The notes under the pieces were generated by a model. It saw only the letters and a program-made list of their open reading frames with translations. It was not told the origin of the DNA and ran no database searches. A program made the position numbers and the translations under genes. 64,000 bases of DNA. Source: Tubiluchus corallicola (lineage: Eukaryota; Priapulida; Priapulimorpha; Priapulimorphida; Tubiluchidae). Below are positions 26,295 to 44,416 of this stretch, piece after piece (the stretch's first letter is position 1; every line of letters begins with the position of its first letter). Where the stretch lies: the NCBI GenBank assembly GCA_030141605.1, contig JAQGDQ010000347.1, forward strand, positions 64,759 through 128,758, given 5' to 3'.

Positions 26295-26325
26295 ATTGAA
26301 AAACAAAAATTAGAACCTATATTTG
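26295..26325 (+). promoter_or_regulatory. Bacteroidota-type promoter for namZ
   Basis: A -33-like ATTG at 26295-26298 and a -7 box TATATTTG (TAnnTTTG) at 26318-26325, spaced 19 nt. It lies 75 bp before the namZ ATG on the same strand. The rest of the 615-bp divergent region from 25785 shows no gene. Confidence 0.6.
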
Positions 26326-26399
26326 TGTTACATATTCACAAACACATTATCCGGAATCGAACTTTCAAACCCGATCTATCAACTGACAGAAAAATTAAA

Positions 26400-27632
26400 A
26401 TGAAACAAGCCTTGGTTTTTGTCATACTAACTCTTACTACCGGTTTAGCATTGGGACAAAATGTAAAAACCGGCATAGAAGTACTACAGGAAACCAACTT
26501 CAAAGCACTTAAAGGCAAACGAGTCGGGTTAATTACCAATCCAACAGGTGCAAACAGTAAGCTTGAATCTACAATTGATATTTTATTTAACGCAGATGAA
26601 GTTAACTTAATAGCTTTATACGGGCCGGAACATGGAGTAAGAGGAGATTACTACGCAGGCGATTTTGTAGAGTCCTTTATCGACCCCAAAACTCAATTGC
26701 CGGTTTACAGTCTATATGGCGATAATAAAAAACCCAATGCCGATATGCTAAAAGGCATCGACCTCCTAATCTATGATATTCAGGATATAGGTTCACGCTC
26801 TTACACCTATATCAGCACCTTAGGCCTGGCTATGGAAGCTGCAGCTGAGAACAACATTAAAATGATTGTGCTGGACCGGCCAAACCCTCTCGGTGGAGAA
26901 AAAATGGAAGGCTTAATTACTGAACCGGATTTTATTTCATTCGTCAGTCAATTTCCAATACCTTATGTACATGGACTAACAGTAGGTGAATTAGCACTAT
27001 TTCTAAACGGTGAAAAACTCTTAAAAGATGGTATTCAATGTAGCCTGGAGGTTATCACAATGACAAACTGGCAACGCTCCATGACTTTTGAAGAAACAGG
27101 CCTTCCCTGGATACCATCATCTCCTCATATTCCACACGCACACTCCTCTTACTTTTACCCGGTGAGTGGTATACTAGGTGAACTGTACGTATACAACATT
27201 GGTGTTGGTTACACACTACCATTTCAGGTATTTGCGGCAGAATGGATTGATGCAAGCAGCCTGGCAATTAGACTTAACAACTTAAATATTGAAGGTGTGA
27301 CTTTTCGTCCCGTTCACTTTAAACCTTACTACAGCGTCTCAAAAGGAAAGATGGTGCATGGTGTTCAGGTACACTTTAACAACTATCACAAAGCACCTCT
27401 CTCACTAATTCAATTCTATGTACTTCAAGAAGCCTATAAACTATGGCCTGAACATAATGTATTTGAATTATGTGATAAGTCACGATTAAGCATGTTTGAT
27501 AAAGTGAGTGGAAGCGATCGGGTAAGAGCGGCATTTACCAAGCGCTGGATGGTGAAAGATATCAAAAAAATGTGGTATAAGGACATTAGTAACTTTAAAA
27601 AGAGAGCAAGAAAATATCTCCTGTACAGATAA
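26400..27632 (+). CDS. namZ: Exo-beta-N-acetylmuramidase NamZ (DUF1343, GH171)
   Basis: Releases MurNAc from the non-reducing ends of peptidoglycan glycans. The ATG at 26400 gives a signal peptide (KQALVFVILTLTTGLALGQ); a longer GTG frame from 26286 adds 38 residues without homology. Diagnostic DUF1343 blocks: GKRVGLITNPTGANS, ALYGPEHGVRGDYYAGDFVESFIDP, PVYSLYG, LIYDIQDIGSRSYTYISTLG, VLDRPNPLGG, YVHGLTVGELA and PWIPSSPHIPHAHSSYFYPVSGILGE. 410 aa, a typical length. Convergent with the AmpG-type transporter gene and part of the MurNAc salvage locus. Confidence 0.95.
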   Translation: MKQALVFVILTLTTGLALGQNVKTGIEVLQETNFKALKGKRVGLITNPTGANSKLESTIDILFNADEVNLIALYGPEHGVRGDYYAGDFVESFIDPKTQLPVYSLYGDNKKPNADMLKGIDLLIYDIQDIGSRSYTYISTLGLAMEAAAENNIKMIVLDRPNPLGGEKMEGLITEPDFISFVSQFPIPYVHGLTVGELALFLNGEKLLKDGIQCSLEVITMTNWQRSMTFEETGLPWIPSSPHIPHAHSSYFYPVSGILGELYVYNIGVGYTLPFQVFAAEWIDASSLAIRLNNLNIEGVTFRPVHFKPYYSVSKGKMVHGVQVHFNNYHKAPLSLIQFYVLQEAYKLWPEHNVFELCDKSRLSMFDKVSGSDRVRAAFTKRWMVKDIKKMWYKDISNFKKRARKYLLYR

Positions 27633-27794
27633 ACGAAACCTCTGCAAAACTCACCAGTAATTCGTTCCCAAGAAATCTAGCAACACAACATTGCAGTTTT
27701 CTCTTATCATAAACACAACAGCGCTATCCCTATTTACAAACAGAAAAAACGAGAATACTAAAAAATATAGCCTTCACCCTGCAAATAACTACTA

Positions 27795-29627
27795 TCACTC
27801 AGCCTTTTTAATACCAAACGAAGGGTCGATCTTAAGAAAACGAATAACCAAGAAGCCGGGAATAGTACAAATCATTACCCATATAAAAAAACTCTGGTAC
27901 CCAATAATCTCCTGCAACCAGCCGGATACCATTCCCGGAATCATCATCCCTAATGCCATTAAACCTGAACAGATGGCATAATGAGCGGTCTTACTCTTGC
28001 CTTCTGAAAAATATATAAGATACAGCATATAAGCTGTAAAGCCAAACCCATACCCAAATTGCTCAACAGCTACGCTGCAGGCTATAAGCCACATGCTCTC
28101 TGGAGTGAAATATGACAAATAAACATAGGTTAAATTTGGCAGATTTATTGCCATCGTCATCCACCAAATCCAATACTTCAAACCATTGCGTGATGCTAGC
28201 CAGCCCCCTACAATTCCTCCAAAAGTTAAAAAAATGATGCCAATAGTGCCGTAAACCAAACCTACATCACCGGTTGTTAACCCCAATCCACCAACTTCAC
28301 GAGCATCCAGTAAAAATGGTGACGCTAGCTTCACCAACTGGCTTTCACCCAGCCTAAACACTAAAATAAAGAGAATGCCAACACCAAAATTCTCCTTTTT
28401 GAAAAATGACACAAAAGTTTTGCCAAACTCTTTTATCATGTTTTTACCTTCTGCCGCAGGCTTATCTGCAACCGGACGCGGCAAAAAGAAGCGGTGATAA
28501 ATAAGAAATACCACAAATAGTGCTGCCAGCACAAAAAATGTAACTGACCATGCAAAAGGAATATTACCAGATAAGCCACGGAAGCTCCCAGACGTAACAG
28601 CATTTAACTTAGGGTCGGCTTGTACCAGTACCCACGCTTGCTTATCCCAGTTACCACTATTGAAAACCAATCGCTGCCCTTCCACCAATGATAAATCTTT
28701 AGCCCCCTTGTAGCGGTCGAAATTCAGAACAACTACCTCTCCATCGCCTGGCGCAGCTGATAATTGCAGCCCAAGCACCGCAATATTACCTTGAACAGCT
28801 CCTTTGAACGAAACATCATCTACCTTGCCAAACTTCTCTTTTAAGAAGCCTTTTAAAGGGATAGACACTGTCGCTGACCACCATCCCGGCTCAGCAACAG
28901 ACTTCCCTCCCTGTACAACAAAGCCATTTATAATATTTTGCTGATGTGCCCAGCTCTTTAGTGAATCAGCTTCACCTTTTTGAAGCTGATTAACCCCCAA
29001 TGTAAAATCCTCAGATGTTAACACAAAGCGCAACTTACCTCTCTCCCTTACACCCACATTACCTTCCGGTATTTTCCATCGAGTAGGCTCAACTTGGGTG
29101 GTCACATTAAACTCTACCGGCTCCAATCCGGTTGACGACTCAATTGCCCCCGCAAGTATAATTAAAAGCCCTTGCCCGGTAATCATCGCTAAGCGGTAGA
29201 AAGTACTACGAATACCAATAAAATAGGCTTGCTTATGCTCATCCAAATCGAGCATATAAAAACCATCGGCAGCAATATCGTGCGTAGCTGAACTAAAAGC
29301 CAAAAGCCAAAAAAACATGAGTGTATACTGAAAAAAACCCGGAACAGGAATGGTTAAAGCCACACCGCCCAATCCTGCTCCAATAAATAACTGCATTGCC
29401 ACAATCCACCAACGCTTGGTCTTAAGCAGGTCTACAACCGGGCTCCACATCCATTTGACCACCCATGGCAAATAGAGCCAGCTGGTATACAACGCAATAT
29501 CTGAATTAGAAATTCCCAGACGCTTGTACATAATTACCGAAACAGTCATAACCACAACGTAGGGAATACCTTCAGCAAAATATAATGAGGGCACCCAGGC
29601 CCATGGAGATGTAGACTTTTGTCTCAT
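27795..29627 (-). CDS. AmpG/MurT-like MFS transporter for MurNAc or muropeptides
   Basis: Inner-membrane importer of peptidoglycan fragments. 610 aa, MFS fold with AmpG signatures: PSLYFAEGIPYVVVMTVSVIMYKRLGIS, LPWVVKWMWSPVVD, SSATHDIAADGFYMLDLDEHKQAYFIGIRSTFYRLAMITGQG. Between helices 6 and 7 an insertion of ~170 residues (~190-360, beta-rich, no membrane segments) makes it longer than enterobacterial AmpG. C-terminal helices contain FGGIVGGWLASRNG and PGMVSGWLQEIIGY. In Tannerella forsythia the equivalent MurT is encoded next to murK and murQ; here those lie 11 kb away. It follows the SpoIID gene by 117 bp. Confidence 0.88.
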   Translation of the reverse strand: MRQKSTSPWAWVPSLYFAEGIPYVVVMTVSVIMYKRLGISNSDIALYTSWLYLPWVVKWMWSPVVDLLKTKRWWIVAMQLFIGAGLGGVALTIPVPGFFQYTLMFFWLLAFSSATHDIAADGFYMLDLDEHKQAYFIGIRSTFYRLAMITGQGLLIILAGAIESSTGLEPVEFNVTTQVEPTRWKIPEGNVGVRERGKLRFVLTSEDFTLGVNQLQKGEADSLKSWAHQQNIINGFVVQGGKSVAEPGWWSATVSIPLKGFLKEKFGKVDDVSFKGAVQGNIAVLGLQLSAAPGDGEVVVLNFDRYKGAKDLSLVEGQRLVFNSGNWDKQAWVLVQADPKLNAVTSGSFRGLSGNIPFAWSVTFFVLAALFVVFLIYHRFFLPRPVADKPAAEGKNMIKEFGKTFVSFFKKENFGVGILFILVFRLGESQLVKLASPFLLDAREVGGLGLTTGDVGLVYGTIGIIFLTFGGIVGGWLASRNGLKYWIWWMTMAINLPNLTYVYLSYFTPESMWLIACSVAVEQFGYGFGFTAYMLYLIYFSEGKSKTAHYAICSGLMALGMMIPGMVSGWLQEIIGYQSFFIWVMICTIPGFLVIRFLKIDPSFGIKKAE

Positions 29628-29744
29628 TATTGTTTAAATTTAGTTCGAATCCGACACACAGAGCACAAAGTTTATATCTGTAATTATCAAGAATGCACTT
29701 AACCCATATAAACTAGTAGAAACAGGGCTTCAATATGCTATCTG

Positions 29745-31076
29745 TTAATACATTTTCTTCAATTCAGCCCCTCTAAAATAGTGCATTAAGATAGCATTAT
29801 AAGCATACCCTTTGGCTCCCATAACGGCAGCTCCAATCTGGCAAAGCCCAACACCATGACCCCACCCGGCACCTTTTAAAACAAAAACTACCTCACCATT
29901 TACCTCCCCTTTCTCTATGATAAAAGCTGAACTGTAAAGATGTGAGGCCGATAACGCCTTTCTAATCTCCAACTCCTTACCAATGGTCAGAACCTTTTTA
30001 TCTCCGACAATCTTTAGCTTTATTAAACGACCTGAAGCACCTCGCTCAACAGGAACCATCTCCTGAATAGTCCCAAAATCAAAACCGGTGCGCCTTTTTA
30101 CCAACTCACTTACCTCCCTCTGCGTGTACTCTACCTCCCAGCGATAAAAATCATTAGTCTCCTGATCATAATCATTTAACACCTGACTCAACACCTCCTT
30201 ACTATCAGTATTACAAAAGGTGTCCGGTGAACCAAGTATCCATTTCTTTGCATAGATCTCTTTTTTTAAATCAAGACTAAAACCTTCAGGATCTATATCA
30301 TTATCAACAAAAGCCTGCAAATATGGGTGCTCAACCGGCTCCCAAACATTCTCAAACTTCTCAACCATACCACCGCAACATTTGGAAAAACGCGCATCAC
30401 ATATAACATCACCGCTCATCAAAACCTCTCCCAATGTGGTACGCACAGCCTCCTCAACCTCAACAGTAGTAGAACGCGTAATGCCCTGGTAACGCTGGCA
30501 ATGATCATCAGCACAAACATCAAACATTTGATGATCCTCTCGGTCGTACCACTTAATAAACTCCGTATCAGTCTTATAAAGTGACTGATAGCACATATCA
30601 CTCCGCTGTAACGCTTTACTCTTTTTTATCTGTGCCAATAACCAGCTACGAGAAATAACCGCGTGTGCTTTAAGCAATTCTAATGATGATGTTGCACTCA
30701 TCTCGGAAGAAATAACACTCATCAGGTAATCTTCAACTGGCAACACATTAATAACTACTACCTTTTCATTATCAACCAATAACTTCAACCCACCATAAAA
30801 AGATTGATCCTCTCTGCGCTCCCAGTGAAAATTAATTCCGATTGTCACATCATGTAAAATAAAATATGCAGCTTCGCTTACGGGGTTTATTAAAATGCCC
30901 GAAGCTAAAGCTGTTGACCCACTACCATCAGATAAACTAAGCCCTCCATTGATGCAGGACACCCTACATTTACCTGTAAGCTTAACACCCGTGCCGGTTT
31001 CATACTGTCCGCGCAAAGTAAATCCAACTGTTTCTTTAAACTGAATACCTACTTGTATTACTGGTATATTTCCCAT
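29745..31076 (-). CDS. SpoIID/LytB-domain protein, predicted lytic transglycosylase
   Basis: 443 aa. The SpoIID core begins with VLPVEDYLMSVISSEMSATS then SLELLKAHAVISRSWLL; E125 corresponds to the catalytic Glu of SpoIID, which cleaves glycan strands stripped of stem peptides. The C-terminal GAGWGHGVGLCQIGAAVMGAKGYAYNAILMHYFRGAEL is the classic ending. Cysteines in the middle (CADDHCQRYQ, CCGG) are common to the Bacteroidota subfamily. The N-terminus (MGNIPVIQVGIQFKETVGFTL) has no signal peptide, which is odd for a wall enzyme and suggests action on imported oligomers or an unrecognised start. Probably co-transcribed with the AmpG-type gene. Confidence 0.88.
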   Translation of the reverse strand: MGNIPVIQVGIQFKETVGFTLRGQYETGTGVKLTGKCRVSCINGGLSLSDGSGSTALASGILINPVSEAAYFILHDVTIGINFHWERREDQSFYGGLKLLVDNEKVVVINVLPVEDYLMSVISSEMSATSSLELLKAHAVISRSWLLAQIKKSKALQRSDMCYQSLYKTDTEFIKWYDREDHQMFDVCADDHCQRYQGITRSTTVEVEEAVRTTLGEVLMSGDVICDARFSKCCGGMVEKFENVWEPVEHPYLQAFVDNDIDPEGFSLDLKKEIYAKKWILGSPDTFCNTDSKEVLSQVLNDYDQETNDFYRWEVEYTQREVSELVKRRTGFDFGTIQEMVPVERGASGRLIKLKIVGDKKVLTIGKELEIRKALSASHLYSSAFIIEKGEVNGEVVFVLKGAGWGHGVGLCQIGAAVMGAKGYAYNAILMHYFRGAELKKMY

Positions 31077-31512: not shown

Positions 31513-32503
31513 GCGCTGTTCTGAGAACAACCTCACAAGCTTAAACTTGAGTAGCAATACAGATTTAGTGAATTTGAACTGCGAACAAAATGCTCTCACA
31601 AGTTTGGATATAAGTAACAATACGAATTTAAGTATTTTTTATTGTTATGATAATGCTCTCACAAGTTTGAATGTGAGTAATAACAAGGCTTTAAAGACTC
31701 TTGTCTGCTCTGATAATAATCTCACAAACTTGGATGTGAGTAACAATAAGGATTTGATGATTTTTGCTTGCGACAGGAACAATCTCACGAGCTTGGATGT
31801 AAGTAATAATACAAACTTAAGTACACTGCAGGTAGATGAAGATATAAAGTGTGAACCTTCTATTGTAGAGTTAAACCCTATCAATTGCATCTATTGGTAT
31901 TGGGATGAAACCCAAAGCCGTCCTATTAAATATCACCCTGCTGTGGACTGCCATACACCTGCTGCTCTTTTCTGGGTGCCAGATGATAATTTTAGAAATG
32001 AACTAAAAAAGATAGTTCCCAATGCTTTCACCCCCAAAGATAGCCTGATAGCATACCACCCAGACGTGTTGGCTGTTACTTCTATAGATGTGGACAAAAA
32101 AATATCACATCCTTAGATGGCGTACAATTCTTTACAGCTTTAGAAGAACTGCATTGCAATGAGAATAAACTCACAAGTTTGGATCTGAGTGATAACACAG
32201 CTCTAATCAGGCTGGAATGTAATAAAAACAATCTTGCGAGTCTGGATATGAGCGGGCTTACAGATTTAATGGTCTTGTGGTTAATCTCACAAGCTTGGAT
32301 CTTAGTAGCAATACTGCTTTACGTACCATATATTGCTCTAGTAACAATCTTACATGTCTGGATCTGCGTAATAATACTGATTTAATATCTTTGACCTGTA
32401 GAAAGAATAAGATCATTTATTTGAATACAAGTAATAGTACAAACTTATGGTCTCTACAGTGCGATCAAAACCGTCTCACTAGTCTGGATCTTAGTAACAA
32501 TAC

Positions 32504-32644
32504 AGCTATAGGGTCATTGCACTGTAATAACAACCATCTTGTAGAATTGGATGTGAGCAATAATACTTCTTTAAGGAATTTTATTTGTGATAATAATCAT
32601 CTCTCATATTTGGACCTTAGTAAGAATACTGCTCTAGGCTATTT
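32504..32644 (+). repeat. 141-bp direct repeat flanking the IS1634-type element (left)
   Basis: Identical to 34292-34432, base for base as read. It starts AGCTATAGGGTCATTGCACT and ends TCTAGGCTATTT and is LRR coding sequence. Long, variable target duplications are a known feature of IS1634. Confidence 0.93.
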
Positions 32645-34291
32645 CCTGTTTTGTGCACCACAACGACGCCCCAAGAATGCACTATTGATTATCAGCAAGA
32701 TAGGAATTTCAAATTTGCATTTTGGGTGCTGCATGCTTAATTTTATGCATGTTTGTCCGAAAAAATAAGAATCGGGAGTGGTTCTGTGAGTGTACAGATA
32801 ATCTCAAAAAATCATGGTAAATATAAGGTTGTAAAAACCGTAGGTTGCGCAAAAACAAAGCGGGAAGAAGAATTGCTTTTATTGCTTGCCAACACAGAGA
32901 TAGAGCGGCTTAGGGGCATGCAATCGCTTTTTGTTGAACACGATGATTTGGTGGTTGAAAACTTTGTGGGCAGCATTGCAAACAATCATTTACAAGTTGT
33001 AGGAAGTGAATTAATTTTAGGCAAAATTTATCAAGTCTTTAACTTTCCGGATGATGGGTGCTGCAATTATTTTCGCAACCTGGTATTATGTCGGTTAGTG
33101 TACCCGGGAAGCAAATTAAAAACCGTTGACTATTTTAGACAGCACCTGAATACAGATGTTAGCGTACACACTATTTATCGTTTCCTTGACGAGCTAAATA
33201 CAAGTTTAAAGCCACAAATTGAACAACTTACCTTTAAGCACACCAGGAAGCTACTAAAAGGAAAAATAAGTGTCGCATTTTATGATATGACCACATTGTA
33301 TTTTGAGGCATCAGAAGAAGATGACTACCGTATTCCCGGATTCAACAAAGATGGCAAGCATCAACAACCGCAAATAATGATAGGTTTACTGGTGGGTAAA
33401 TATGGATACCCGATTGGCTATCAAATATTCGAGGGAAACACCTCTGAAACAAAAACACTAATCCCTGTTCTGGAAGCCTTTCAAAATAAATTTAATATCG
33501 AAAGGCCTATTGTAGTTGCCGATGCAGCTTTACTCTCGCAGAAGAACATAAATGCCTTGATTGAAAACAAATACGAGTACATACTTGGAGGACGGATAAA
33601 GAATGAAAGTCAAAAAATAAAAGAAAAAATTATAGCTCTTGATATTAAAGAAAACAAGCCAGTTGAGTTGAAAAACAAGAATGGAAGGTTGATTATCAGC
33701 TTCTCAGAAAAAAGAGCCTTCAACGATAAAAAAACAGAGAGAAGGGCTTAAAAAGACTTGAAAAACGTGTTGCTTCCGGCAAGCTAACAAAGAATCGCAT
33801 AAATAATCGCGGGTATAATAAATATCTGAATCTGTCGGGGGAGATTGCCGTTAAAATCGACTACGATAAGTTCCAGTCAGATAGAGTTTGGGATGGGTTG
33901 AAGGGTTATGTAACCAATACCCATTTACCGAGAAAAGATGTTATCGGGAATTATAGTCAGTTGTGGCAAGTGGAAAAAGCTTTTCGTATATCAAAAACTG
34001 ATTTACGAATACGGCCAGTTTATCACCGCTTAAAAGAACGCATTGAAGCCCATATCTGTATTTGTTTCACAGCCTATGCCATTTACAAAGAGCTGGAAAG
34101 GTTATTGAAGGCAAATAATATTGATATCTCTGCTGAAAAAGCCTTGGAACAAATCCGGCAGATCAGGCAGCTGCAATACACTCTGCCCAAATCGAAACAA
34201 GTCAGAACAAAAATATTACAGCCAACTGAAATGCAAAAAAAGTTGTTAAATATGAAATTATAAACTTGGGTGCTGCAATGCACAAAACAGG
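32645..34291 (+). mobile_element. IS1634-family insertion sequence
   Basis: 1647 bp, bounded by inverted repeats with a perfect 13-bp tip: CCTGTTTTGTGCA at 32645-32657 and TGCACAAAACAGG at 34279-34291. Similarity continues inward with gaps (...CCCCAAG / CTTGGG...). One transposase gene fills it, in two frames. Flanked by 141-bp direct repeats of the host LRR gene. Confidence 0.92.
32749..34263 (+). pseudogene. IS1634-family (IS4-like DDE) transposase with two A-run frame breaks
   Basis: The ATG at 32749 reads MFVRKN and leaves frame at an A6 run (32760-32765); with five As the N-terminus would continue into GSGSVSVQIISKNHGKYKVV. The central frame (to 33751) holds the first two catalytic Asp motifs, AFYDMTTLYFEASEEDDYR and PIVVADAALLSQKNI. 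At an A7 run (33727-33733) the frame breaks again; the -1 frame continues EKGLKRLEKRVASGKLT to the third motif LWQVEKAFRISKTDLRIRPVYHR and stops at 34263. All DDE residues exist but in separate frames. Either real inactivation, homopolymer errors in the assembly, or slippage. Confidence 0.85.
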
Positions 34292-34432
34292 AGCTATAGG
34301 GTCATTGCACTGTAATAACAACCATCTTGTAGAATTGGATGTGAGCAATAATACTTCTTTAAGGAATTTTATTTGTGATAATAATCATCTCTCATATTTG
34401 GACCTTAGTAAGAATACTGCTCTAGGCTATTT
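34292..34432 (+). repeat. 141-bp direct repeat flanking the IS1634-type element (right)
   Basis: Second copy of 32504-32644, after which the LRR gene continues with CHENNLTSLDVSNNKNLD. Confidence 0.93.
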
Positions 34433-34655
34433 GTCTTGCCATGAAAACAATCTTACAAGTTTGGATGTGAGTAACAACAAAAACTTAGATATTTTGTCTG
34501 TAGATAAAGCTTTAATGTGTGAGCCCTCTATTGTAAGTCAGAATCCACGTTTTTGCACTTTCTGGACTAAAAGTGGTCGTATGCTCCAATATAGACCTGA
34601 ATTGGAGTGCAATTAGTAGGAGGAAAGACAAGAACTAAAAAAATAATTATGAACT

Positions 34656-34812: not shown

Positions 34813-35754
34813 TTATCCCAGCAATCGTTCTGACACTTCTGTGCACTCATTTTCATCCATACACACCTGACGAAAAATATCGGCAATATCGTTGGATTCT
34901 ATTCTCTCAAAATCTTCAGACCGAGGCGTAATAAATACCCCCCCCATGTCTACTGATGCCGGGCTAATCAGAATCTGCTCATCACCCTCAGCAAAATAAC
35001 AGGCCGGACGATGAAGAACTCGTGGAAACACATGCACCACATACTCTTTACCGTCATAATAGGTCAGCACGTTAATCATGGGTTCAGCATCCTCCACCTG
35101 GCTTAACCGGAGTAACTTATGTAGCCTTACAAACAACCGAACAATCATCCCGGTATTATTGCCACTACTAAAAGTGATGACTCCACGACTATAACCCTGC
35201 CAACTATACACCTCAACCCCATCTGCCATAAAAACTCGTTTCGCGAAAGTGCTGTCTTTGAAATCTTTTTCTATAGGCATAACCCCTTTCATACCTGCCT
35301 GAAAATGAAAATGATCCGGTGCTGATGCTCCACATTTAGCACCATTATAGAATAAAACAAACCCTTCGAGCTCCCTCGCCAACTCAAGCATTGATGAAAA
35401 GTAAGGCTCAAGTAGTTGCAAAACATGCTCCCTGTGAGATATTGTCAAATGCTCAGGGAAAATTGGAAAAGGATTAATTAAAATAGTGTAATCGCCAAAA
35501 CCAACTCCCTCCTGCTCGGGTGGACGGTTTTTCTCACACAAAAAGCAAGGACGCTCTCGTATTGATATGGCATCTACCTTAGCTGCAGAAGAACGAATAC
35601 GCCCGGGGTTAAACTGTACTTTTATTTCACTACCACCTTCAAGTATTACCCTTTTAGTCCTCACATTCTGCAACCCGGCATAATTTCGTGTGGCCAAGCT
35701 CCAATTTTGAATCTGGCCTACTATTAACTTTTTGACTTTAAGAGAAATATCCAT
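34813..35754 (-). CDS. DUF4922 protein, HIT-like nucleotidyltransferase/phosphorylase
   Basis: 313 aa, cytoplasmic. A Cys pair C70-x-x-C73 in RPCFLCEKNRPPEQ resembles the zinc site of GalT/Ap4A-phosphorylase-like proteins. The catalytic motif is GASAPDHFHFQAG with H148-x-H150-x-Q152, the H-x-H-x-Q form used by the branched HIT families that transfer or phosphorolyse nucleotidyl groups (GalT, Ap4A phosphorylase, GDP-L-galactose phosphorylase). The segment INPFPIFPEHLTISHREH also fits. Substrate unknown. It starts 10 bp after the GT2 stop, so it is in one operon with the GT2 and amidase genes. Confidence 0.85.
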   Translation of the reverse strand: MDISLKVKKLIVGQIQNWSLATRNYAGLQNVRTKRVILEGGSEIKVQFNPGRIRSSAAKVDAISIRERPCFLCEKNRPPEQEGVGFGDYTILINPFPIFPEHLTISHREHVLQLLEPYFSSMLELARELEGFVLFYNGAKCGASAPDHFHFQAGMKGVMPIEKDFKDSTFAKRVFMADGVEVYSWQGYSRGVITFSSGNNTGMIVRLFVRLHKLLRLSQVEDAEPMINVLTYYDGKEYVVHVFPRVLHRPACYFAEGDEQILISPASVDMGGVFITPRSEDFERIESNDIADIFRQVCMDENECTEVSERLLG

Positions 35755-35764
35755 TATTTTACAC

Positions 35765-37231
35765 TTATACCTGTTGCCCTTTAGCTATATACTGCTGACG
35801 CGCTTTGAGCTCTATGGTTCTGATTTTATCCTTATAGAAATTATGTGTATTCATCATACTGATACCTAATGATGCATCTGAATTGTCATCCCAGCGACGA
35901 CACAGGTATAATGGCTCATAAATACGCCCAATCTGATATTGGCGGCTGATGCTTAATCCTAAAGCATAATCCTCCCCATAGCTGGTATTCGGCACTTTCA
36001 CACAACGTAACACTGGTGTATAAAAAGCTCGTGGCGCTCCCAGACCATTAATACGTAAAGCATTATTACGACCATTATCCGGCGTCCACTCTTTATGATC
36101 AATCAAACCGGGAGGAATCTCCTCCAACTTAAAATTTACCATCTGATAACTCCCCACTACCATGGCGCAACTCTGCTCATAAAATGCTTTTACCACAAGC
36201 CTAATAACGCTATCATCGATATACAGGTCATCACTATCTAGCTGGATAGCAAACTTGCCGCAACGCTCATCTGCCACCGCAACATTCCAGCAACCGCCTA
36301 TGCCCAAGTCACTCCGCTCAGGAATAATATGTATCAATCGCTCATCATCAAACGAACGGATTATTTCAGAAGTCCTATCTGTAGAATGGTTATCAACTAC
36401 AATAAGATTAAATTCAAAATCGGCTTTCTGCTTTAAAGCCGATACAATGGCATCCCTAATAGTCTTCTCACGGTTGCGTACCGGAATAATAACTGATGCC
36501 TCAACAGGGTAACTCCCTTTCGCAAACTCAATAGGTTTAAATATCGGCTTTAAATAAGCCCCAATCTCTTTTAAATGAGCTGTACAAACCCGCTCCATTT
36601 CAATCTGACGACTACGGTTACGCGGGTCTACATAATCAAACACTTTCTCACCTGACTTACGGCTATCTAACTCCACTTCTGAATAAAGCAACTCAGGCAA
36701 ATGCATTAACTCGTACTTTTGCGACACACGCAATCTTAAATCATACAAAGCTGCAAATTGATACTCAGCATCCATGGTCTCCACAGCACCTTTTAGCGCT
36801 TCAGCCGTAAATAGTAGCAACGAGCCAAAATTGAAATCATCACGCAGGCTACCCGCCTGGTATTCAATTACAGGATGAGCACTCATTTTGCCCTCTCTCC
36901 TCTCGTAATAATCTGAATATACCATTCCTGCACCGGCATCGGTACAGCAGTGGCACATACGCTCCAATGCATTCATACCAATGTTAAGCTCCATAGATTT
37001 GGTGTATACTGCTACAAATTTGCCTGTAACCTCACTTAAAAGCTGCTTCCATGTAGCAGTAGCATCCAGACCACCTTTAGACACTACAACTTTAGCCCCG
37101 TCAACAATAACACTCTCTTTAGCAACAACTACAATATTCACCTCTTCCCCAGACTCTTGAAATGACTTAACCGTTTGTGTTAACTCTTCCTTATTTGAAT
37201 AAGGAAGAATACAGGTAATTTTCTCAAACAT
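35765..37231 (-). CDS. Two-domain family 2 glycosyltransferase
   Basis: 488 aa, no signal peptide or membrane helices. The C-terminal half (~243-470) is a canonical GT2: ASVIIPVRNREKTIRDAIVSAL, LIVVDNHSTDRTSEIIRSF, and LDSDD at 331-335 as the metal/nucleotide-sugar D-x-D motif, then GEDYALGLSISRQY. The N-terminal half (1-~200) repeats the fold in degenerate form (KITCILPYSNKEELTQTVKSFQ, MVYSDYYERREG) and has no D-x-D. Sugar donor and acceptor unknown. Located between the amidase-like and DUF4922 genes with gaps of 25 and 10 bp. Confidence 0.88.
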   Translation of the reverse strand: MFEKITCILPYSNKEELTQTVKSFQESGEEVNIVVVAKESVIVDGAKVVVSKGGLDATATWKQLLSEVTGKFVAVYTKSMELNIGMNALERMCHCCTDAGAGMVYSDYYERREGKMSAHPVIEYQAGSLRDDFNFGSLLLFTAEALKGAVETMDAEYQFAALYDLRLRVSQKYELMHLPELLYSEVELDSRKSGEKVFDYVDPRNRSRQIEMERVCTAHLKEIGAYLKPIFKPIEFAKGSYPVEASVIIPVRNREKTIRDAIVSALKQKADFEFNLIVVDNHSTDRTSEIIRSFDDERLIHIIPERSDLGIGGCWNVAVADERCGKFAIQLDSDDLYIDDSVIRLVVKAFYEQSCAMVVGSYQMVNFKLEEIPPGLIDHKEWTPDNGRNNALRINGLGAPRAFYTPVLRCVKVPNTSYGEDYALGLSISRQYQIGRIYEPLYLCRRWDDNSDASLGISMMNTHNFYKDKIRTIELKARQQYIAKGQQV

Positions 37232-37256: not shown

Positions 37257-40200
37257 TTATTCAGCCTTAATAAAAAAATCAAGAATATCTTTCATTAAGG
37301 CATCACGTTCACTCTCTTTAATAATCGTCTCAAAAGGAAAGCCAAGCATCACATTTTTATACTCTCCGTTATAGATAGTTCCAGCACTGGCATTATTTTC
37401 TTTATAACGAAAGGCCGTTATTGCATCTTTACCCAACGGCTCAATAGCGTCAGGCGCCTCCACCGTATAAAAATCTGGGTGGTAGTCCGTATTAAAAGTA
37501 TACTCACCTCTAATAATCGGGATAGCATAATCAGTTGTATACACACTTCCCCCTTTAGCAGCATGATTAGTTCGCCAATAAAAATGCAACACTTCAGACA
37601 CAAATGCCTCTGCAATAGTATCATTTTGAAGTATAAAATCAGAAGCTATATAAGCGCCACTCATAAATATATGCTGTCCATTAGCTGTTACCTGCTTTAT
37701 TTTATCCATAAAAGCTGGTGTGTAAACGATATATCTCGGCTCTCCTCCTTCATGTGACACCGTTGTCTTCTCCTCTCCCAATATTACATCAATTGCCTTA
37801 TAAACCGATGCATCGTATGATTTACTTTCAAACACTTCATCACTTACAGAAACAAAAGAGTAGCCCGCCCTCATAATTGACTCCCCATGAACCATAACAT
37901 TATCAAAACTATTACCTTTTATAACCTTGGATTCGCTATCTCCGTGACTGGCTCCCCATCCCGGACTATCATCATCCAACCAGGGAGACTGACGATTAAA
38001 ATCGTACTGATGACCTGTATATGCATATTCAAACTTATCTGGTACACCATGATCATCCCACCAGGCCACACCTGCAAAATTGCCCTCATCAATAAATGAC
38101 GGAGCACTAATACGGTCAAAAGCATTCACCACTAAAACCTTCTCAGCTTGCTCTCCTGCTATACCCATTGACAAAACCTCACTTGGCATGCTTTCGCCTC
38201 CATCATTAAGAGCAGTTACTTTATAACTTACAATCTGCCCCTTATCTGCCTTTGGTAATATGCAAGATGTGTCTTCAACAATGGTTCCGTTGTCAAACCC
38301 GCTGCTTCCAACACGGCGATAAACTCTGTATTTTGTTGGAATTGCCGTTGGCTCCAGGGAATCTGCTACCGCCTGCCAACTCAACTTATAACCATCGGTG
38401 CTTTCGGTAATTGCCAAATGGCTTACCGGCAGGGGGTGCACCACATAATCTCTCCCTTCCTGAAATGCTAAAAACTTAAGTATGCCCTTATAAACAGCCC
38501 GACTTACATTAAAACGAAAGTGAGGGTCCAGCCCATACCTCATATCTGCCAGATTCTGGTGCGATAAAAGTTCTAGTAGCATAGTTGGCACATTAGGCCT
38601 CCATGCTTCTGAATACTGCCTATCCCATATTCCCCTGTGCCTCCATTTTTCATTGTACAACACCCGAATATCTTCTACTATTTGCGTCTGGACAATGTCT
38701 GTTAAATCCCGGCTGGCAAGTTTAGACTGGCCGCTAAGAAAAACCCTTTCATCCCGTTCTGAACTGTAAATCCCAAGTGTTCCAATAACTGAATCATCAG
38801 GTGTTACCCCTGCATCGGTGTGGAAAGCAAGTGCTAAATCAACAGGCAGGCTTAACCCTGCTGCATCTCTGTTTTTAGCAGGCCCGTTAGGTGCTCCCAT
38901 TAAGTAATTAACCCACTCACCACGACTTTGATAATCATCATTATAATCATTCTTATCCTCATTGAGACTATATATCAACGTATCGGGCATACCTGCGTAT
39001 TGTAACCAATAACGTGAAGCCTCAGTATAGCGGGGACGCTGTGAGGTTTTCCATGTAAAACTGTTAGGGTTTACCTTTTCCCCTTCCACCTCATCTCCTC
39101 CTTCGGATCTTAACGACCATTTATTAGGGATCACCTCATCGGCAGGACGACGAGCCACATTCCCCATTCCCCCTCCAATACGTACTGCATCAAGTGAAAC
39201 CTGCCCGTTGCCATAAACCTCAACTGATGACCCTTTACCTTTCTTAAAGCAAAAAGTACCTAAATAGGCCCATGTACCTCCACCCATAGTTTGGTTTAAC
39301 ACATATGAAGTGCTCCCTCCACTATGTTTAATCGTGTACTTTACCTCTTCAGAGTTACTTGGCGACTGCCTATATGATACATAAACCGCATACTCGCCAT
39401 CCTCAGGTATCTCCGGCAAATACTCTGCAACTTTGCCGTTGGCATTTATAACAGTTTGAGATCTCCCACCCGTAAAAGGATTATCCCCTGAAAAAAGAGT
39501 ATCTTTATAAGCAAAGCCTCTCTCTCTCTTTATCCTAAGACCCTCTGCAACTATCAGTTCCGAACTTCCACTCGACCAGTCATCATCTACTATTATTTCA
39601 TTTCTCTGAAAGCATCGTTCGCGTGGCATAAACACTGTTGCTCCTGAATTTTCGAGCATAGGAGCAATATATTGTAGCACATATATCATTGGTGAAATAT
39701 CTTCAACAGATCCGTACAGACGTGCACGCTGCCACTCCCATCTGTCAAGCTTCGACTCGTAATACCAGCCATGGCTATGATACAGTGCAACATAATTGTT
39801 CGCTAGCCCTTTGGCAAAGTTCTCTGCCCCCACTTTATAAATATACTTTGCTTTATCTATTTTAGCCGGCAGCCTCGACCTGTCCACATCTTGACTATAT
39901 ATATTAGGAATCAGCTCTACAAGCTCATATCCACCCGTATATACACCTACTTGATAACCTTTAATCTTCCCCTTTAGTTCGGCAGTCAAACTGTTCTTAA
40001 AAATTGCCTCTGCCTCATGCCTCCAGGGTAAATGAGATAAAGCCTTGTTAAAATAGAAGGCAACCTCTTTCTCCGAATGATTTACCTTAAATGAATCAAG
40101 CTGAATATTTCCCACATGTGCCCACTTCTGCAAAGGAAACTGCCAATCTACCATTGACTTTCGCAGCTTTTTCTCATGCCTGTCTTTAGCTCTGGCCTGA

Positions 40201-40268
40201 GCAGCAACACTAATGAACCAGCAGGAACAGATAGCTGCTAAAACAATTGCTTTTAATATAGCTCTCAC
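37257..40268 (-). CDS. Large exported N-acetylmuramoyl-L-alanine amidase-like protein with golvesin/Xly domain
   Basis: 1003 aa. Signal peptide (AILKAIVLAAICSCWFISVAAQ). Split Amidase_3-like features: YHSHGWYYES at 163-172 (H164/H166), AFHTDAG at 481-487 (H483) and LLELLSHQNLADMRY from 564 (E566). These correspond to the zinc-binding His, SxHxDA and E-x-x-F-L-S-N motifs. A golvesin/xanthan-lyase-like beta domain (AVYVSYRQSPSNSEEVKYTIKHSG...MGGGTWAYLGTF, ~270-370) is inserted between them. An FnIII domain (~615-705) and a C-terminal glutamine-amidotransferase-like domain follow. Relatives are often annotated xanthan lyase. In this locus, removal of stem peptides from peptidoglycan is the likely role. 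Confidence 0.78.
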   Translation of the reverse strand: MRAILKAIVLAAICSCWFISVAAQARAKDRHEKKLRKSMVDWQFPLQKWAHVGNIQLDSFKVNHSEKEVAFYFNKALSHLPWRHEAEAIFKNSLTAELKGKIKGYQVGVYTGGYELVELIPNIYSQDVDRSRLPAKIDKAKYIYKVGAENFAKGLANNYVALYHSHGWYYESKLDRWEWQRARLYGSVEDISPMIYVLQYIAPMLENSGATVFMPRERCFQRNEIIVDDDWSSGSSELIVAEGLRIKRERGFAYKDTLFSGDNPFTGGRSQTVINANGKVAEYLPEIPEDGEYAVYVSYRQSPSNSEEVKYTIKHSGGSTSYVLNQTMGGGTWAYLGTFCFKKGKGSSVEVYGNGQVSLDAVRIGGGMGNVARRPADEVIPNKWSLRSEGGDEVEGEKVNPNSFTWKTSQRPRYTEASRYWLQYAGMPDTLIYSLNEDKNDYNDDYQSRGEWVNYLMGAPNGPAKNRDAAGLSLPVDLALAFHTDAGVTPDDSVIGTLGIYSSERDERVFLSGQSKLASRDLTDIVQTQIVEDIRVLYNEKWRHRGIWDRQYSEAWRPNVPTMLLELLSHQNLADMRYGLDPHFRFNVSRAVYKGILKFLAFQEGRDYVVHPLPVSHLAITESTDGYKLSWQAVADSLEPTAIPTKYRVYRRVGSSGFDNGTIVEDTSCILPKADKGQIVSYKVTALNDGGESMPSEVLSMGIAGEQAEKVLVVNAFDRISAPSFIDEGNFAGVAWWDDHGVPDKFEYAYTGHQYDFNRQSPWLDDDSPGWGASHGDSESKVIKGNSFDNVMVHGESIMRAGYSFVSVSDEVFESKSYDASVYKAIDVILGEEKTTVSHEGGEPRYIVYTPAFMDKIKQVTANGQHIFMSGAYIASDFILQNDTIAEAFVSEVLHFYWRTNHAAKGGSVYTTDYAIPIIRGEYTFNTDYHPDFYTVEAPDAIEPLGKDAITAFRYKENNASAGTIYNGEYKNVMLGFPFETIIKESERDALMKDILDFFIKAE

Positions 40269-40357
40269 CTTTGTGGTAACACTTATTATTACTAATCGAA
40301 AATATTCCGGTACACCAAAAATAGAAAGTTTTTCCTAAGGCCCAAATTTATGTCATA

Positions 40358-40370
40358 CATGTTACATGTC
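40358..40370. promoter_or_regulatory. Possible operator between the divergent amidase and murK genes
   Basis: ACATGTTACATGT, two palindromic ACATGT words one base apart, centred in the 240-bp divergent region between the amidase operon and murK-murQ. A site for the FadR-type regulator at 43.7 kb is one possibility; this is inference from position only. Confidence 0.3.
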
Positions 40371-40508
40371 GCTTTTGATTTCTATACTGTTTATTTCTAA
40401 ATTTACACTATATTTACCTCAAGCACATCGCCAAAAAATACATAAAAATCAGCACCTTAAGACCTTACAAGAGCGATGATTAGTTTATAACATGCCATAA
40501 AGCTATAT

Positions 40509-41369
40509 ATGATACTAATTGCAGATAGCGGTTCAACCAAGACAGAATGGCGCTTACTAGGCAGAAGCAACTCCCATTTGAAGACATGTATTACAAAAGG
40601 CATTAATCCATTCTATCAAACTTCATCTGAGATACTCAAAAGTTTAAACGAAGAGTATAAATTAAACAATATTAAGCTTCAGGAAGTTCATTTTTATGGC
40701 GCCGGCTGTGCTAATAAAGAGAAAAATAAAATAGTAAAAGCTGCGCTTACTAGGTTTTTTACCACCGAAAATATTACAGTAAACAGCGATCTAACCGGAG
40801 CTGCTCGCTCATTATGCCAAAATGATAAAGGGGTTGCCTGTATTTTAGGTACAGGATCCAACTCATGCTACTACAACGGGCATGAGGTGATTGCAAATGT
40901 TTCTCCTCTGGGTTTTATTATTGGAGACGAGGGTAGCGGTGCCGCACTAGGTAAAAAATTAATAGGCGATATATTTAAAAACCAGCTCTCAGATGAAGTC
41001 ACTGAAATATTTTTTAAGGAGTACCGAACAGACAGAACTGAAGTACTTGATAATATTTACAAGCGCCCTTTACCTAATCGCTACTTGGCTCAATACACCA
41101 AATTTATCTCTGCTAACATACATATTAAAGAATTAGAGAAGCTAGTGATTACATCGTTCAATGAGTTTATTTGCCGTAATCTGCTTCAATATGAAAACGT
41201 TTTTAAGGTTAAGATTAACTTCACAGGCAGTATCGCTTATCATTTTAGACCACAACTCAAAAAAGCTTTAACCCAGTTCGATTTAACACTAGGTATAATT
41301 ACGCAGGCACCAATGGACGGCCTAGTACAGTATCACCACCAGCTAAAAAATTGTAATGGCAAAAAATAA
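40509..41369 (+). CDS. murK: BadF/BcrA-family amino-sugar kinase (MurK-like)
   Basis: Phosphorylates MurNAc and/or GlcNAc at O6 before the MurQ step. 286 aa with the actin-like ATPase motifs: ILIADSGSTKTEWRLL (phosphate 1), VHFYGAGCANKEK, GVACILGTGSNSCYYNG (phosphate 2) and GFIIGDEGSGAALGKKLI, then INFTGSIAYHF (adenosine motif). Its stop overlaps the murQ start by 14 bp, so the two are translationally coupled, as with murK-murQ in Tannerella. The name is by context and family; a plain GlcNAc kinase cannot be excluded. Confidence 0.85.
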   Translation: MILIADSGSTKTEWRLLGRSNSHLKTCITKGINPFYQTSSEILKSLNEEYKLNNIKLQEVHFYGAGCANKEKNKIVKAALTRFFTTENITVNSDLTGAARSLCQNDKGVACILGTGSNSCYYNGHEVIANVSPLGFIIGDEGSGAALGKKLIGDIFKNQLSDEVTEIFFKEYRTDRTEVLDNIYKRPLPNRYLAQYTKFISANIHIKELEKLVITSFNEFICRNLLQYENVFKVKINFTGSIAYHFRPQLKKALTQFDLTLGIITQAPMDGLVQYHHQLKNCNGKK

Positions 41370-42183
41370 AAAAGAGAAGAAGTTAAGCATAACCGAATCC
41401 CCCTCCCGCTTTGATAACCTGGAGAAGATGTCGGTAGAGGAGTTAATTACAAATATTAACCTGGAGGATGCTAATGTGCATGTAGCCGTTAAAAATGCAC
41501 TACCTCAAATCAGGAAGCTGGTTGAGCGTATTATTAAACGAATGAAGCAAGGCGGCAGAATATTCTATCTTGGAGCCGGGACGAGCGGGCGCCTGGGTGT
41601 ATTAGATGCCTCTGAGCTTCCGCCAACATTCGGCGTGCCCGACAATATGGTTATTGGACTTATTGCAGGCGGCGATATTGCTCTTCGAAAAGCGGTCGAA
41701 GCGGCAGAAGATGACCCAGACAAGGCTTGGAGTGAATTATGCGAATATAAAGTAGATAGCCTGGATACTGTAATTGGCATTGCCGCATCCGGGACAACAC
41801 CTTATGTTATTGGCGGTATTAGGCATGCACGCAAAAATGGCCTATTAACCGGCTGCATCACAAGCAACCTCAAAAGTAAAGTGGCAGAAGTAACTGAGTT
41901 CCCTGTCGAAGCTATTGTTGGCCCTGAATTTGTTACCGGTAGTACCAGATTAAAAGCCGGAACAGCTCAAAAAATGATCCTTAATATGATCACCACTACA
42001 ATTATGATACAATTGGGGCGTGTTAAAGGAAATAGAATGGTCAATATGCAACTCACCAATAAAAAGCTTATTGACAGAGGTTCCAGAATGATTATGGAAG
42101 AACTAAAATTGAATTACGAAGAGGCTGAAAACCTTCTTCTAAAGCATGGGTCGGTTAAAAAGGCAATAGAAGCTTATAAATAA
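41356..42183 (+). CDS. murQ: N-acetylmuramic acid 6-phosphate etherase MurQ
   Basis: Cleaves the D-lactyl ether of MurNAc-6P to give GlcNAc-6P and D-lactate. SIS fold with the MurQ signatures GRIFYLGAGTSGRLGVLDASELPPTFGVP and GLIAGGDIALRKAVEAAEDDPDKAW; the catalytic Glu pair is E87 (SELPP) and E118 (AEDD). VGPEFVTGSTRLKAGTAQKM also matches. 275 aa, typical. Starts inside the 3' end of murK. Confidence 0.96.
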   Translation: MAKNKKEKKLSITESPSRFDNLEKMSVEELITNINLEDANVHVAVKNALPQIRKLVERIIKRMKQGGRIFYLGAGTSGRLGVLDASELPPTFGVPDNMVIGLIAGGDIALRKAVEAAEDDPDKAWSELCEYKVDSLDTVIGIAASGTTPYVIGGIRHARKNGLLTGCITSNLKSKVAEVTEFPVEAIVGPEFVTGSTRLKAGTAQKMILNMITTTIMIQLGRVKGNRMVNMQLTNKKLIDRGSRMIMEELKLNYEEAENLLLKHGSVKKAIEAYK

Positions 42184-42207
42184 CAAGGTTTAGTGTAATA
42201 ACCAGCT

Positions 42208-42319
42208 GAAGCATTTGCAGGGCAAAAGGCTTTGACTAATACTGAGAAAAACTCGATGAAAGACCTCCGTTTACTGATATAAATGAATATTTTGAAGAGG
42301 ATCTTGGCGAAAATAAGAG
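42208..42319 (+). repeat. Interspersed repeat R1, interrupted by IS256
   Basis: Starts GAAGCATTTGCAGGGCAAAA; core AACTCGATGAAAGACCTCCG, TTGAAGAGGATCTTGGCGAAAAT. It is cut by the IS insertion at 42320. Confidence 0.75.
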
Positions 42320-42356
42320 TAGCAAATAGCACTATCTCATAAACTGTGTAAATAGA

Positions 42357-42390
42357 AAATGCCGAGGGTTGCAACCCTCGGCATTTTTTT
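42357..42390 (+). terminator. Hairpin with T-run inside the left IS256 end
   Basis: AAATGCCGAGGGTT pairs with AACCCTCGGCATTT (2-nt loop) followed by a T-run. It should block read-through transcription into the transposase from murKQ. Confidence 0.8.
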
Positions 42391-42416
42391 GTTTAATTTT
42401 AAAACTTTAGACAGTA

Positions 42417-43613
42417 ATGAAAAAAGAAGATTTATTAAATGATGATTTCCTTGAACAATTTAATTCAGGGGAAGAGCTCAATGGTTTTTTACAAGAGCTC
42501 CAAAAACGAGGCATTGAAAAGATGCTTGAAGGAGAACTCGATGGTCATTTAGGCTATGATAAGAATCAAAAATCGGATAATCAGAATGCCCGCAATGGCT
42601 ATTCAGAGAAGAGAGTCCGAACCACTCTGGGAGAATCCAACATTCAGGTTCCCCGAGACCGTGATTCTTCGTTTAATCCGATGATTGTACCCAAGGGAGG
42701 GAACATGGTCGATGGCTTAGAGAATATCATTGTTTCGTTTTATGCTAAAGGAATGAGTAATAGCGATATTGAAGAGCAAATTCGGGAGCTATACGGTTTT
42801 GAAGTTTCCACATCCACCATATCAAGGATTACCGATTCAGTCACCAACGACATTGTAGCGTGGCAGAACCGACCTCTGGAAACTGTATACCTAATTGTTT
42901 GGATGGATGGCATTGTATTTAAAGTGCGGGAGAACTCTAAGGTCGTCAACAAAACCGTTTACATTGCCGTAGGACTTCGCAGAGATGGGAAAAAAGAGGT
43001 TCTTGGCTTATGGTTGGGCAAGAGTGAGTCCGCTGCCTTTTGGATGAACGTACTTACCGATATGAAAGCCCGTGGAGTTAACGATATTCTGATTACGGCA
43101 ACAGATAACTTGAATGGCTTTACAGATACTATCCGAACTGTTTTCCCTGAATCTAAAACACAAATATGTGTTGTTCATCAAATCCGTAACGCAAGCAGAT
43201 ACGTGGTTTGGAAAGATAAAAAGGCATTTACAAAAGATATGAAGCAAATCTATAATGCCCCTACAAAAGAGGCTGCAAAAGCAGCTTTAGAAGATTTTGC
43301 AGCAGCTTGGGAGGATAAATACTCTTACGCAATTAAAAGCTGGCGAGACAACTGGGAAGACCTAACAGTATTCTTTGAGTTTCCGCTGGAAATCAGAAAG
43401 ATAATTTATACAACCAACCTGATTGAGAATCTCAACGGAAAAATCAGAAAATACACAAAAAACAAACTTTCATTCCCGTCAGACCAGGCTGTAATGAAAT
43501 CTGTATTTTTGGCAACCAGAGAAGCAACTAAAAAATGGTCAATGCCAATCAGAAACTGGGGCATTGTCTTGAATCAGTTCTTAGTTATATTTGAAAAAAG
43601 GGTCCAGCTATAA
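42417..43613 (+). CDS. IS256-family (mutator-type) transposase
   Basis: 398 aa, intact. Family blocks: [91 protein letters not shown] residues appear in [34 protein letters not shown] and the C-terminal [14 protein letters not shown] region. Catalyses replicative or copy-out transposition with 8-9 bp duplications. Likely still active because element ends and target duplication are intact. Confidence 0.97.
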
Positions 43614-43684
43614 ACAGCCAAACCCTCGGTGTTTTTTTAGTTTACACACTTTGTGAAACAGTGTCTAGCAAATCAAAATACTAC

Positions 43685-44416
43685 TTACTTACTGAATGTA
43701 TCTTTAAAATATCTGTCGTACACCTCCATATTGCGCTCCAGCAACTCTACAGTGTACTGATAAGACCTACAGCTATCTTTCTCTTTAATTGCATTATAAA
43801 TTTCACGCTGAAGCCTCAATGTGTACTCTTTTTCACCCTCGATATTAGCATAAATCATATTGCGCATACGCGGTAAAAGAGAATAAATGGGCTCCATAGA
43901 AATAACAACAATTGGGTTGCCAGTCGACTTTGCCATATTTGCATGAAAGCGGTTAATTAAATCAACCTCTAACTGTGTATTATCAGGATCACACTTCTCT
44001 AACTCAGAAAGATTCTCCTGCAGGTGTCTCAAATCATCTTCACTGCGGTTATATGCTGCTAAACGCCCGATCTCCGGCTCAAATATTCGCCTCACCTCAA
44101 TAATATGGCGAATAAGGCTTGAATCAAATTTCAAATCATAATAAAGATTGAGGGACTCAATAGCATCTTCAATTCTTATTTCAGAAATATACATCCCACT
44201 ACCCTTTTTTATGTTAATTAAGCCTCGTGCACTTAATCGGCGCAGCGCTTCTCGCAGAGCAGTCCGGCTAACAGCAAAGCTCTCGCATAGCTCTTTTTCC
44301 GAAGGCAACTTAGTTCCGGGAATTAACCGCTTTGTACGAATCGCCTCTTCAACCTTACGCTCAATTTTTTGACTTAAAGTTTGACTTGATCCTATTTTCC
44401 CAAAAATATCATCCAT
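43685..44416 (-). CDS. GntR-family regulator, FadR/FCD type
   Basis: 243 aa. The winged helix (RLIPGTKLPSEKELCESFAVSRTALREALRRLSARGLINIKKGSGMYIS, ~30-80) is followed by an all-helical FCD ligand domain (IIEVRRIFEPEIGRLAAYNRSEDDLRHLQENL, LINRFHANMAKSTGNPIVVISMEPIY; the R, D/N and two His positions are metal/ligand candidates). FCD regulators sense carboxylates and sugar acids. Convergent with murKQ across the IS256 element and probably the regulator of the MurNAc locus, which is inference. Confidence 0.88.
   Translation of the reverse strand: MDDIFGKIGSSQTLSQKIERKVEEAIRTKRLIPGTKLPSEKELCESFAVSRTALREALRRLSARGLINIKKGSGMYISEIRIEDAIESLNLYYDLKFDSSLIRHIIEVRRIFEPEIGRLAAYNRSEDDLRHLQENLSELEKCDPDNTQLEVDLINRFHANMAKSTGNPIVVISMEPIYSLLPRMRNMIYANIEGEKEYTLRLQREIYNAIKEKDSCRSYQYTVELLERNMEVYDRYFKDTFSK

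Follow-up and report, generated by a model that had tools for sequence, protein, structure and literature searches.

Known routes of muropeptide salvage and the locus of the window

The Escherichia coli-type route of peptidoglycan recycling runs through AmpG, NagZ, AnmK and MurQ. The present study concerns a locus for the salvage of N-acetylmuramic acid (MurNAc) and muropeptides in a 64,000-nucleotide stretch (the window) of contig JAQGDQ010000347.1 from the genome assembly of the priapulid Tubiluchus corallicola, and in particular three of its genes (the trio), encoding a GT2 glycosyltransferase, a DUF4922 protein and a SpoIID-type protein without a signal peptide. NamZ, an AmpG-like importer, a candidate MurNAc kinase and MurQ are found together in the window, indicating a MurNAc/muropeptide salvage locus, with the reservation that the AmpG match lies under the TIGR00901 cut-off and that the kinase is recognised only at the level of the BadF family. 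On balance, the trio probably forms a cytoplasmic module that handles AmpG-imported muropeptide sugars and partly replaces NagZ and AnmK in many Bacteroidota, because its genes are fused in a number of loci, co-occur across genomes, keep their catalytic residues, include a SpoIID protein without a signal peptide, are present only together with AmpG homologs and are enriched where AnmK or NagZ is absent. Compared with the E. coli type, AmpG import and MurQ are shared, and so would be the MurNAc 6-phosphate intermediate, provided that the BadF kinase functions as MurK; the locus has this kinase instead of AnmK, and the genomes in which GT2, DUF4922 and the cytoplasmic SpoIID are found often lack NagZ and/or AnmK.

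The closest described system is that of Tannerella forsythia, in which reverse transcription PCR revealed one transcript of Tanf_08345 ('xanthane lyase'), 08350 (gtf), 08355 (gtf), 08360 (lytB), 08365 (ampG), 08370 (ybbC) and murTKQ; the gtf genes and lytB of this operon (Tanf_08345-08385) are given no function in that report (PMC5388701). According to a further report, AmpG of T. forsythia is required for growth on N-acetylglucosamine (GlcNAc) linked to 1,6-anhydro-MurNAc (GlcNAc-anhMurNAc) and on GlcNAc-MurNAc, anhMurNAc alone can be used, though poorly, the organism has no predicted AnmK, and the processing of the imported fragments is called an important question by the authors (PMC7670621). 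MurK does not phosphorylate anhMurNAc, as stated in another paper (PMC5790795). The literature surveyed assigned no function to the GT2, DUF4922 or SpoIID genes; later assignments may exist.

Relative to the T. forsythia operon, the window has counterparts of all genes except murT (no sodium symporter was detected among the 26 window open reading frames (ORFs) scanned), with the amidase-like protein in the position of the 'xanthane lyase' and ybbC corresponding, by its position, to a putative namZ. The window differs in that NamZ is inverted, the amidase-like gene has MurK-MurQ on its opposite side, a 3-kb leucine-rich repeat (LRR) block bearing an insertion sequence (IS) separates SpoIID (together with AmpG) from DUF4922, and a GntR regulator and an FAD-linked oxidase lie alongside. 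Since the T. forsythia order up to ampG and NamZ equals that of related loci L026, L033 and others, Tanf_08350 is probably this GT2 and Tanf_08355 probably DUF4922. A search for a T. forsythia DUF4922 by name returned, among the matches listed (120 of 7319, most unnamed), only 'Tannerellaceae bacterium'. An earlier sequence-only reading of the window had held that known mur operons, Tannerella murTKQ included, leave the glycosyltransferase and DUF4922 unexplained; the genes, gaps and motif on which it relied were borne out and its interpretation found support in part, but its view of the two as strangers to mur operons is rejected by the gene order of the T. forsythia operon (PMC5388701).

Gene fusion and neighbourhood in related loci

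Relatives of the window's DUF4922 were sought in GTDB genomes; 108 were found, and the best 80 were kept with up to 10 kb on each side, so that the neighbourhood counts are biased by likeness to the window's protein and limited by contig ends. GT2 lies directly upstream of DUF4922 on the same strand in 67 of the 80 loci, SpoIID nearby in 68 and AmpG in 62. MurQ and the Golvesin/amidase gene were each detected in 23/80 loci and NamZ in 10/80. MurK was also found in 23 loci, the FAD oxidase in 12 (five of them weak) and GntR in 11. Moreover, GT2, DUF4922 and SpoIID form a single open frame of ~1250 aa in 29 loci (two cut by the contig end), including the named strains Prevotella jejuni, Hoylesella buccalis and Xylanibacter rodentium, with DUF4922-SpoIID fused in five further loci and GT2-DUF4922 in one. 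The gene set GT2-DUF4922-SpoIID is retained in a KSB1 metagenome-assembled genome (MAG), where the GT2 match is broken by stops, and in a Deltaproteobacteria MAG.

Two GT2 copies per genome were observed in G012 (Hoylesella buccalis, L046; C79, C115), where one copy is the triple fusion, and in G219. GNAT-type acetyltransferases lie within the module in two groups (one member each scanned), namely L002 11184-12089, with like ORFs in L003-L006, and L098 9672-10181, whose cluster c32 also occurs in L095 and L099; these might acetylate a de-acetylated amino sugar. A large protein combining GH9 and polysaccharide deacetylase lies between SpoIID and AmpG in L016 (3433-5904), with its cluster in 10 other loci. 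Where SpoIID is distant from GT2-DUF4922, a BatA-type protein and an HflX-like GTPase also adjoin SpoIID (one member each scanned).

Co-occurrence with AmpG and absence of AnmK or NagZ

In a first sample of 148 Bacteroidota genomes, drawn evenly, strong matches to DUF4922, GT2 and SpoIID were found in the identical 22 genomes. Weak DUF4922 matches in G046 and G155 had been dropped before counting, and so had 21 weak SpoIID matches (E 9e-12 to 2e-6) among the 43 genomes with a match at E<=1e-5, leaving 22. The genes are unlinked in many of these genomes, SpoIID not being beside DUF4922 in 14 of the 22 (on another contig in 13, far off on the same contig in G143), with GT2 and DUF4922 also separated in G093, G101 and G151. 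An AmpG homolog (E<=1e-30) was detected in 44 of the 148 genomes, including all 22 with the trio (Fisher p 2e-14). AnmK occurred in 104/148 genomes, that is in 9/22 trio genomes compared with 22/22 AmpG-positive genomes without the trio (p 2e-5). A NagZ-type GH3 (better than 1e-30) was missing in eight of the 148, all with the trio (p 7e-8; p 0.004 when AmpG-positive genomes alone are counted), and at least one of AnmK and NagZ-type GH3 was missing in 14/22 trio genomes vs 0/22 AmpG-positive non-trio genomes (p 6e-6). Thus, the 13 AmpG-positive genomes without AnmK and the eight without NagZ-type GH3 all have the trio. 'NagZ' is a loose label here, as many GH3 matches lie in frames of ~1000 aa, which may be exported. 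A dependence of the trio on MurNAc 6-phosphate catabolism was rejected, MurQ being over the cut-off in 16/22 trio genomes and in 84/126 others.

A second sample, comprising 198 genomes from the order of G012 and searched for GT2, NagZ and AnmK only, repeated the AnmK pattern: AnmK was present in 6/47 GT2-positive genomes vs 129/151 others (p 5e-20), or in 5/46 without G333, a weak GT2 match (33% identity) kept among the 47. NagZ-type GH3 was missing in 10/47 GT2-positive genomes vs 8/151 others (p 0.002).

A lineage effect, in which the trio, AmpG and the loss of AnmK or NagZ share ancestry only and the task of the trio is unrelated to import, appears quite unlikely. It would fit the few changes of state of the trio, only four on a tree built from the 44 AmpG proteins, whereas the absence of AnmK needs at least six changes on the same tree, all in trio rows, and the pattern returned at the level of an order; that the syntenic T. 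forsythia genes are transcribed together with ampG (PMC5388701) also speaks against it.

A SpoIID-type protein without a signal peptide

The SpoIID protein, overlooked as a cytoplasmic partner by the sequence-only reading, lacks a signal peptide and groups with GT2-DUF4922. In a hydropathy test, a hydrophobic N-terminus above the threshold was found in only 1/52 stand-alone SpoIID proteins, a copy with an over-long start, compared with 20/23 Golvesin/amidase, 9/10 NamZ and 0/22 MurQ proteins. Because of this result, and because the stand-alone proteins begin directly at the N-terminal domain, SpoIID of these loci is very probably cytoplasmic; the fused frames with GT2-DUF4922 together with the missing signal peptide led us to reject SpoIID as an outside enzyme. 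Residue Glu125, unchanged across 32 sequences, corresponds in an HMMER alignment to residue 101 of 5txu, and Glu101 of Clostridioides difficile SpoIID is needed for activity (PMC6221140). With both the domain and the catalytic Glu column, the window-type proteins resemble the SpoIID lytic transglycosylases of PDB entries 4rwr, 5i1t and 5txu and can be assigned to that class. They differ from these enzymes in having neither a signal peptide nor a membrane anchor, in their fusion to cytoplasmic enzymes (within the 29 triple frames), and in a near-invariant motif of their own, FDVCADDHCQRYQG.

Families and folds of DUF4922 and GT2

The H-x-H-x-Q motif attributed to DUF4922 by the sequence-only reading is present as HFHFQ and, like CxxC and N..G.S, is invariant across 66 aligned relatives. 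Fold and nucleotidyl-His motif place DUF4922 in the GalT/Apa2 branch of the HIT superfamily, suggesting a putative phosphorylase or nucleotidyltransferase. It shares fold, HxHxQ and CxxC with Apa2 (Ap4A phosphorylase), GalT and the GDP-L-galactose/GDP-glucose phosphorylases (GGP), the fold having been compared with Apa2 and GalT only, whereas identity to Apa2 is ~16-18% and the partner proteins differ. The family comprises over 7000 protein clusters at E<=0.001, and a literature search on DUF4922 returned only plant work.

A role in metabolite repair, with DUF4922 as a GDP-glucose/nucleoside diphosphate (NDP)-sugar phosphorylase clearing wrong nucleotide sugars and with GT2 and SpoIID as neighbours for other reasons, is considered very improbable. 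Some UniRef names read 'GDP-D-glucose phosphorylase 1', most of the homologs listed (120) have PF26216, the DUF4922 superfamily is among the annotations of a plant GGP-family protein, and DUF4922 stands without GT2, SpoIID or AmpG in loci L029, L032, L044, L052 and L054, all of which would suit such a role; however, the 35 fused frames in the 80 loci and the identical distribution of the three genes in the 148 genomes point to a common task.

In GT2, QLDSDD and GEDY of the C-terminal domain are invariant in 53 sequences (L038 was excluded from the alignment, its match containing stops). These represent the DxD and ED motifs, which we take to be the functional motifs of GT2 enzymes, and together with the GT-A fold they support the family assignment. 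The duplicated fold proposed earlier is borne out by two domains in an AlphaFold2 (AF2) model (pLDDT 92.0), the best overall match of which is the two-domain chondroitin polymerase K4CP. Two GT-A domains with QLDSDD in the C-terminal one are shared with K4CP and with the heparosan polymerase PmHS2, whereas the domain arrangement differs (root-mean-square deviation 22 A over both domains) and the N-terminal domain, by inspection of the alignment, has no canonical DxD, unlike K4CP and PmHS2.

The likeness to K4CP would suit a biosynthetic role, in which a cytoplasmic glycan or glycoconjugate is built from imported wall sugars, with DUF4922 activating the sugar, GT2 polymerising or transferring it and SpoIID trimming the product. 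In addition, SpoIID has a GT4-type glycosyltransferase (cluster c5, of which one member was scanned) as its neighbour in 10 loci, namely L105 (8673-9785), where this enzyme stands between SpoIID and GT2-DUF4922, and nine others of L103-L119; 11 of the 80 loci encode a membrane protein with an LPG_synthase_TM domain; and MurQ is missing in 6/22 trio genomes. Nevertheless, the presence of the trio only with AmpG and its enrichment where AnmK or NagZ is missing suit processing better, and Apa2/GGP-like phosphorylases break down nucleotide conjugates, so biosynthesis seems rather unlikely.

Proposed route and points that weigh against it

If the trio is a processing module, the Golvesin/amidase-like protein would strip peptides outside the cell, NamZ would free MurNAc from glycan ends, and AmpG would import GlcNAc-(anh)MurNAc. 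GT2 might then run in reverse, converting GlcNAc-beta-1,4-(anh)MurNAc and a nucleoside diphosphate to NDP-GlcNAc and (anh)MurNAc, after which DUF4922 would use phosphate to release GlcNAc-1-P from NDP-GlcNAc and recycle the NDP. SpoIID would open the 1,6-anhydro ring, thereby reversing the bond formation that SpoIID lytic transglycosylases catalyse elsewhere, and MurNAc would pass to the BadF kinase (MurK) and MurQ, whose D-lactate could be oxidised by the FAD oxidase. This exact chemistry, a nucleotide-carried phosphorolysis by GT2 and DUF4922 with no nucleotide spent, plus anhydro-bond opening by SpoIID, is put forward tentatively and is doubtful in its details; a literature search for a phosphorylase acting on GlcNAc-anhMurNAc found nothing relevant.

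Several points weigh against a module that replaces NagZ and AnmK. The reversal of GT2 and the opening of the anhydro bond are steps that we infer; the GT2 fold leaves the donor unfixed, the fucosyltransferase WrtF scoring equal to GlcNAc enzymes; and known SpoIID acts on peptide-free glycan strands (PMC6221140). AnmK and NagZ-type GH3 are both kept in 8/22 trio genomes, and in Carboxylicivirga (G001), which is closely related to the window, AnmK is retained (1e-61) and the only GH3 match is weak (4e-15). GT2-negative genomes of the second sample also lack NagZ-type GH3 (8/151) or AnmK (22/151). All association p values ignore ancestry, genome completeness is not stated, so that some absences may be gaps, and the trio switches state only four times on the AmpG tree, where an independent-pairs test is without power. 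At the level of loci, 12/80 have no SpoIID nearby, six of them with ~10 kb downstream; among these are Parabacteroides (L030, L031) and Paludibacter (L022), which have GT2-DUF4922 with no SpoIID at the locus. In the Planctomycetota MAG locus L078 (7338-10924), a NagZ equivalog (276 bits, cut-off 207) lies immediately upstream of the GT2-DUF4922 pair, and the 20 kb of the locus yielded no match to SpoIID. Finally, it is only gene order that identifies GT2 and DUF4922 in T. forsythia.

Gene content and origin of the window

The genes named by the sequence-only reading were all recovered in place with their families confirmed by Pfam and NCBIfam (Table 1), and its gaps of 25 bp between the amidase-like gene and GT2 and 10 bp between GT2 and DUF4922 are exact. 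Its wording 'amidase-like' was fair, as Golvesin_C is matched well and Amidase_3 only below threshold.

Table 1. Features of the salvage locus and its flanks (window positions)
Feature	Position	Strand	Evidence or remark
FAD-linked oxidase with Fe-S/CCG domains, 2-hydroxyacid dehydrogenase type	22944..25784	-	homolog in 12/80 related loci, five weak (150-180 bits)
NamZ, exo-beta-N-acetylmuramidase, signal peptide	26286..27632	+	NamZ_N 7e-83, NamZ_C 4e-38
AmpG-like major facilitator superfamily (MFS) importer, 610 aa	27795..29627	-	TIGR00901 165.5 bits (cut-off 350)
SpoIID/LytB-type, no signal peptide	29745..31076	-	SpoIID 9e-24; TIGR02669 165.4 bits (over cut-off)
LRR-repeat gene interrupted by DDE_Tnp_1 IS; outside module	31547..34620	+	separates SpoIID from DUF4922
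DUF4922, HIT superfamily, GalT/Apa2 branch	34813..35754	-	DUF4922 5e-57; fold and motif
GT2, two GT-A domains	35765..37231	-	Glycos_transf_2 4e-19 in C-terminal half
Exported Golvesin_C/Amidase_3-like protein	37257..40268	-	Golvesin_C 6e-20; Amidase_3 8e-5 (23.1 vs 27 bits)
BadF-family sugar kinase, MurK candidate	40509..41369	+	BcrAD_BadFG 1e-7 (32.2 vs 31.5 bits)
MurQ, MurNAc 6-phosphate etherase	41356..42183	+	TIGR00274 305.5 bits (cut-off 302)
IS256/mutator-type transposase; outside module	42417..43613	+	
GntR/FCD regulator	43685..44416	-	homolog beside MurQ in 11/80 related loci

The amidase-like, GT2, DUF4922, SpoIID and AmpG genes all lie on the minus strand, the BadF kinase and MurQ genes overlap and run opposite to the amidase-GT2-DUF4922 set, and the NamZ gene, whose translation probably begins at the internal ATG 26400, is divergent from the FAD/Fe-S oxidase gene. 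The AmpG-like importer has a middle region of ~185 residues that is missing from shorter AmpG homologs. The IS in the LRR gene consists of transposase pieces at 32753-33751 and 33898-34263 and is bordered on both sides by an exact direct repeat of 141 bp (32504-32644, 34292-34432), far longer than the usual target duplication. A comparison of the SpoIID-DUF4922 gap with the Carboxylicivirga GNAT gene for a remnant gave no real match. Upstream, a SusC/SusD pair with a cyclomaltodextrinase-type alpha-amylase (8995-16453) constitutes a starch-use locus, and an SGSH-type sulfatase (20968-22482) adjoins the salvage locus. The nearest named relatives of the window are Carboxylicivirga (DUF4922 identity 65-72%), and the window is probably a Carboxylicivirga-like bacterial contig, from a contaminant or an associate, inside the eukaryote's assembly, which comprises 343.5 Mb in 2344 contigs.

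Implications for muropeptide salvage

The trio offers a candidate answer to how AnmK-less bacteria, T. forsythia among them, use AmpG-imported disaccharides, and a concrete one of three genes, sometimes of one. It gives a SpoIID-type enzyme a cytoplasmic context and DUF4922 a likely substrate class. If the proposed chemistry is true, the two-protein phosphorolysis together with SpoIID would replace NagZ and AnmK at a saving of energy and would, to our knowledge, be the first case of a SpoIID-type lytic transglycosylase used in the cytoplasm.

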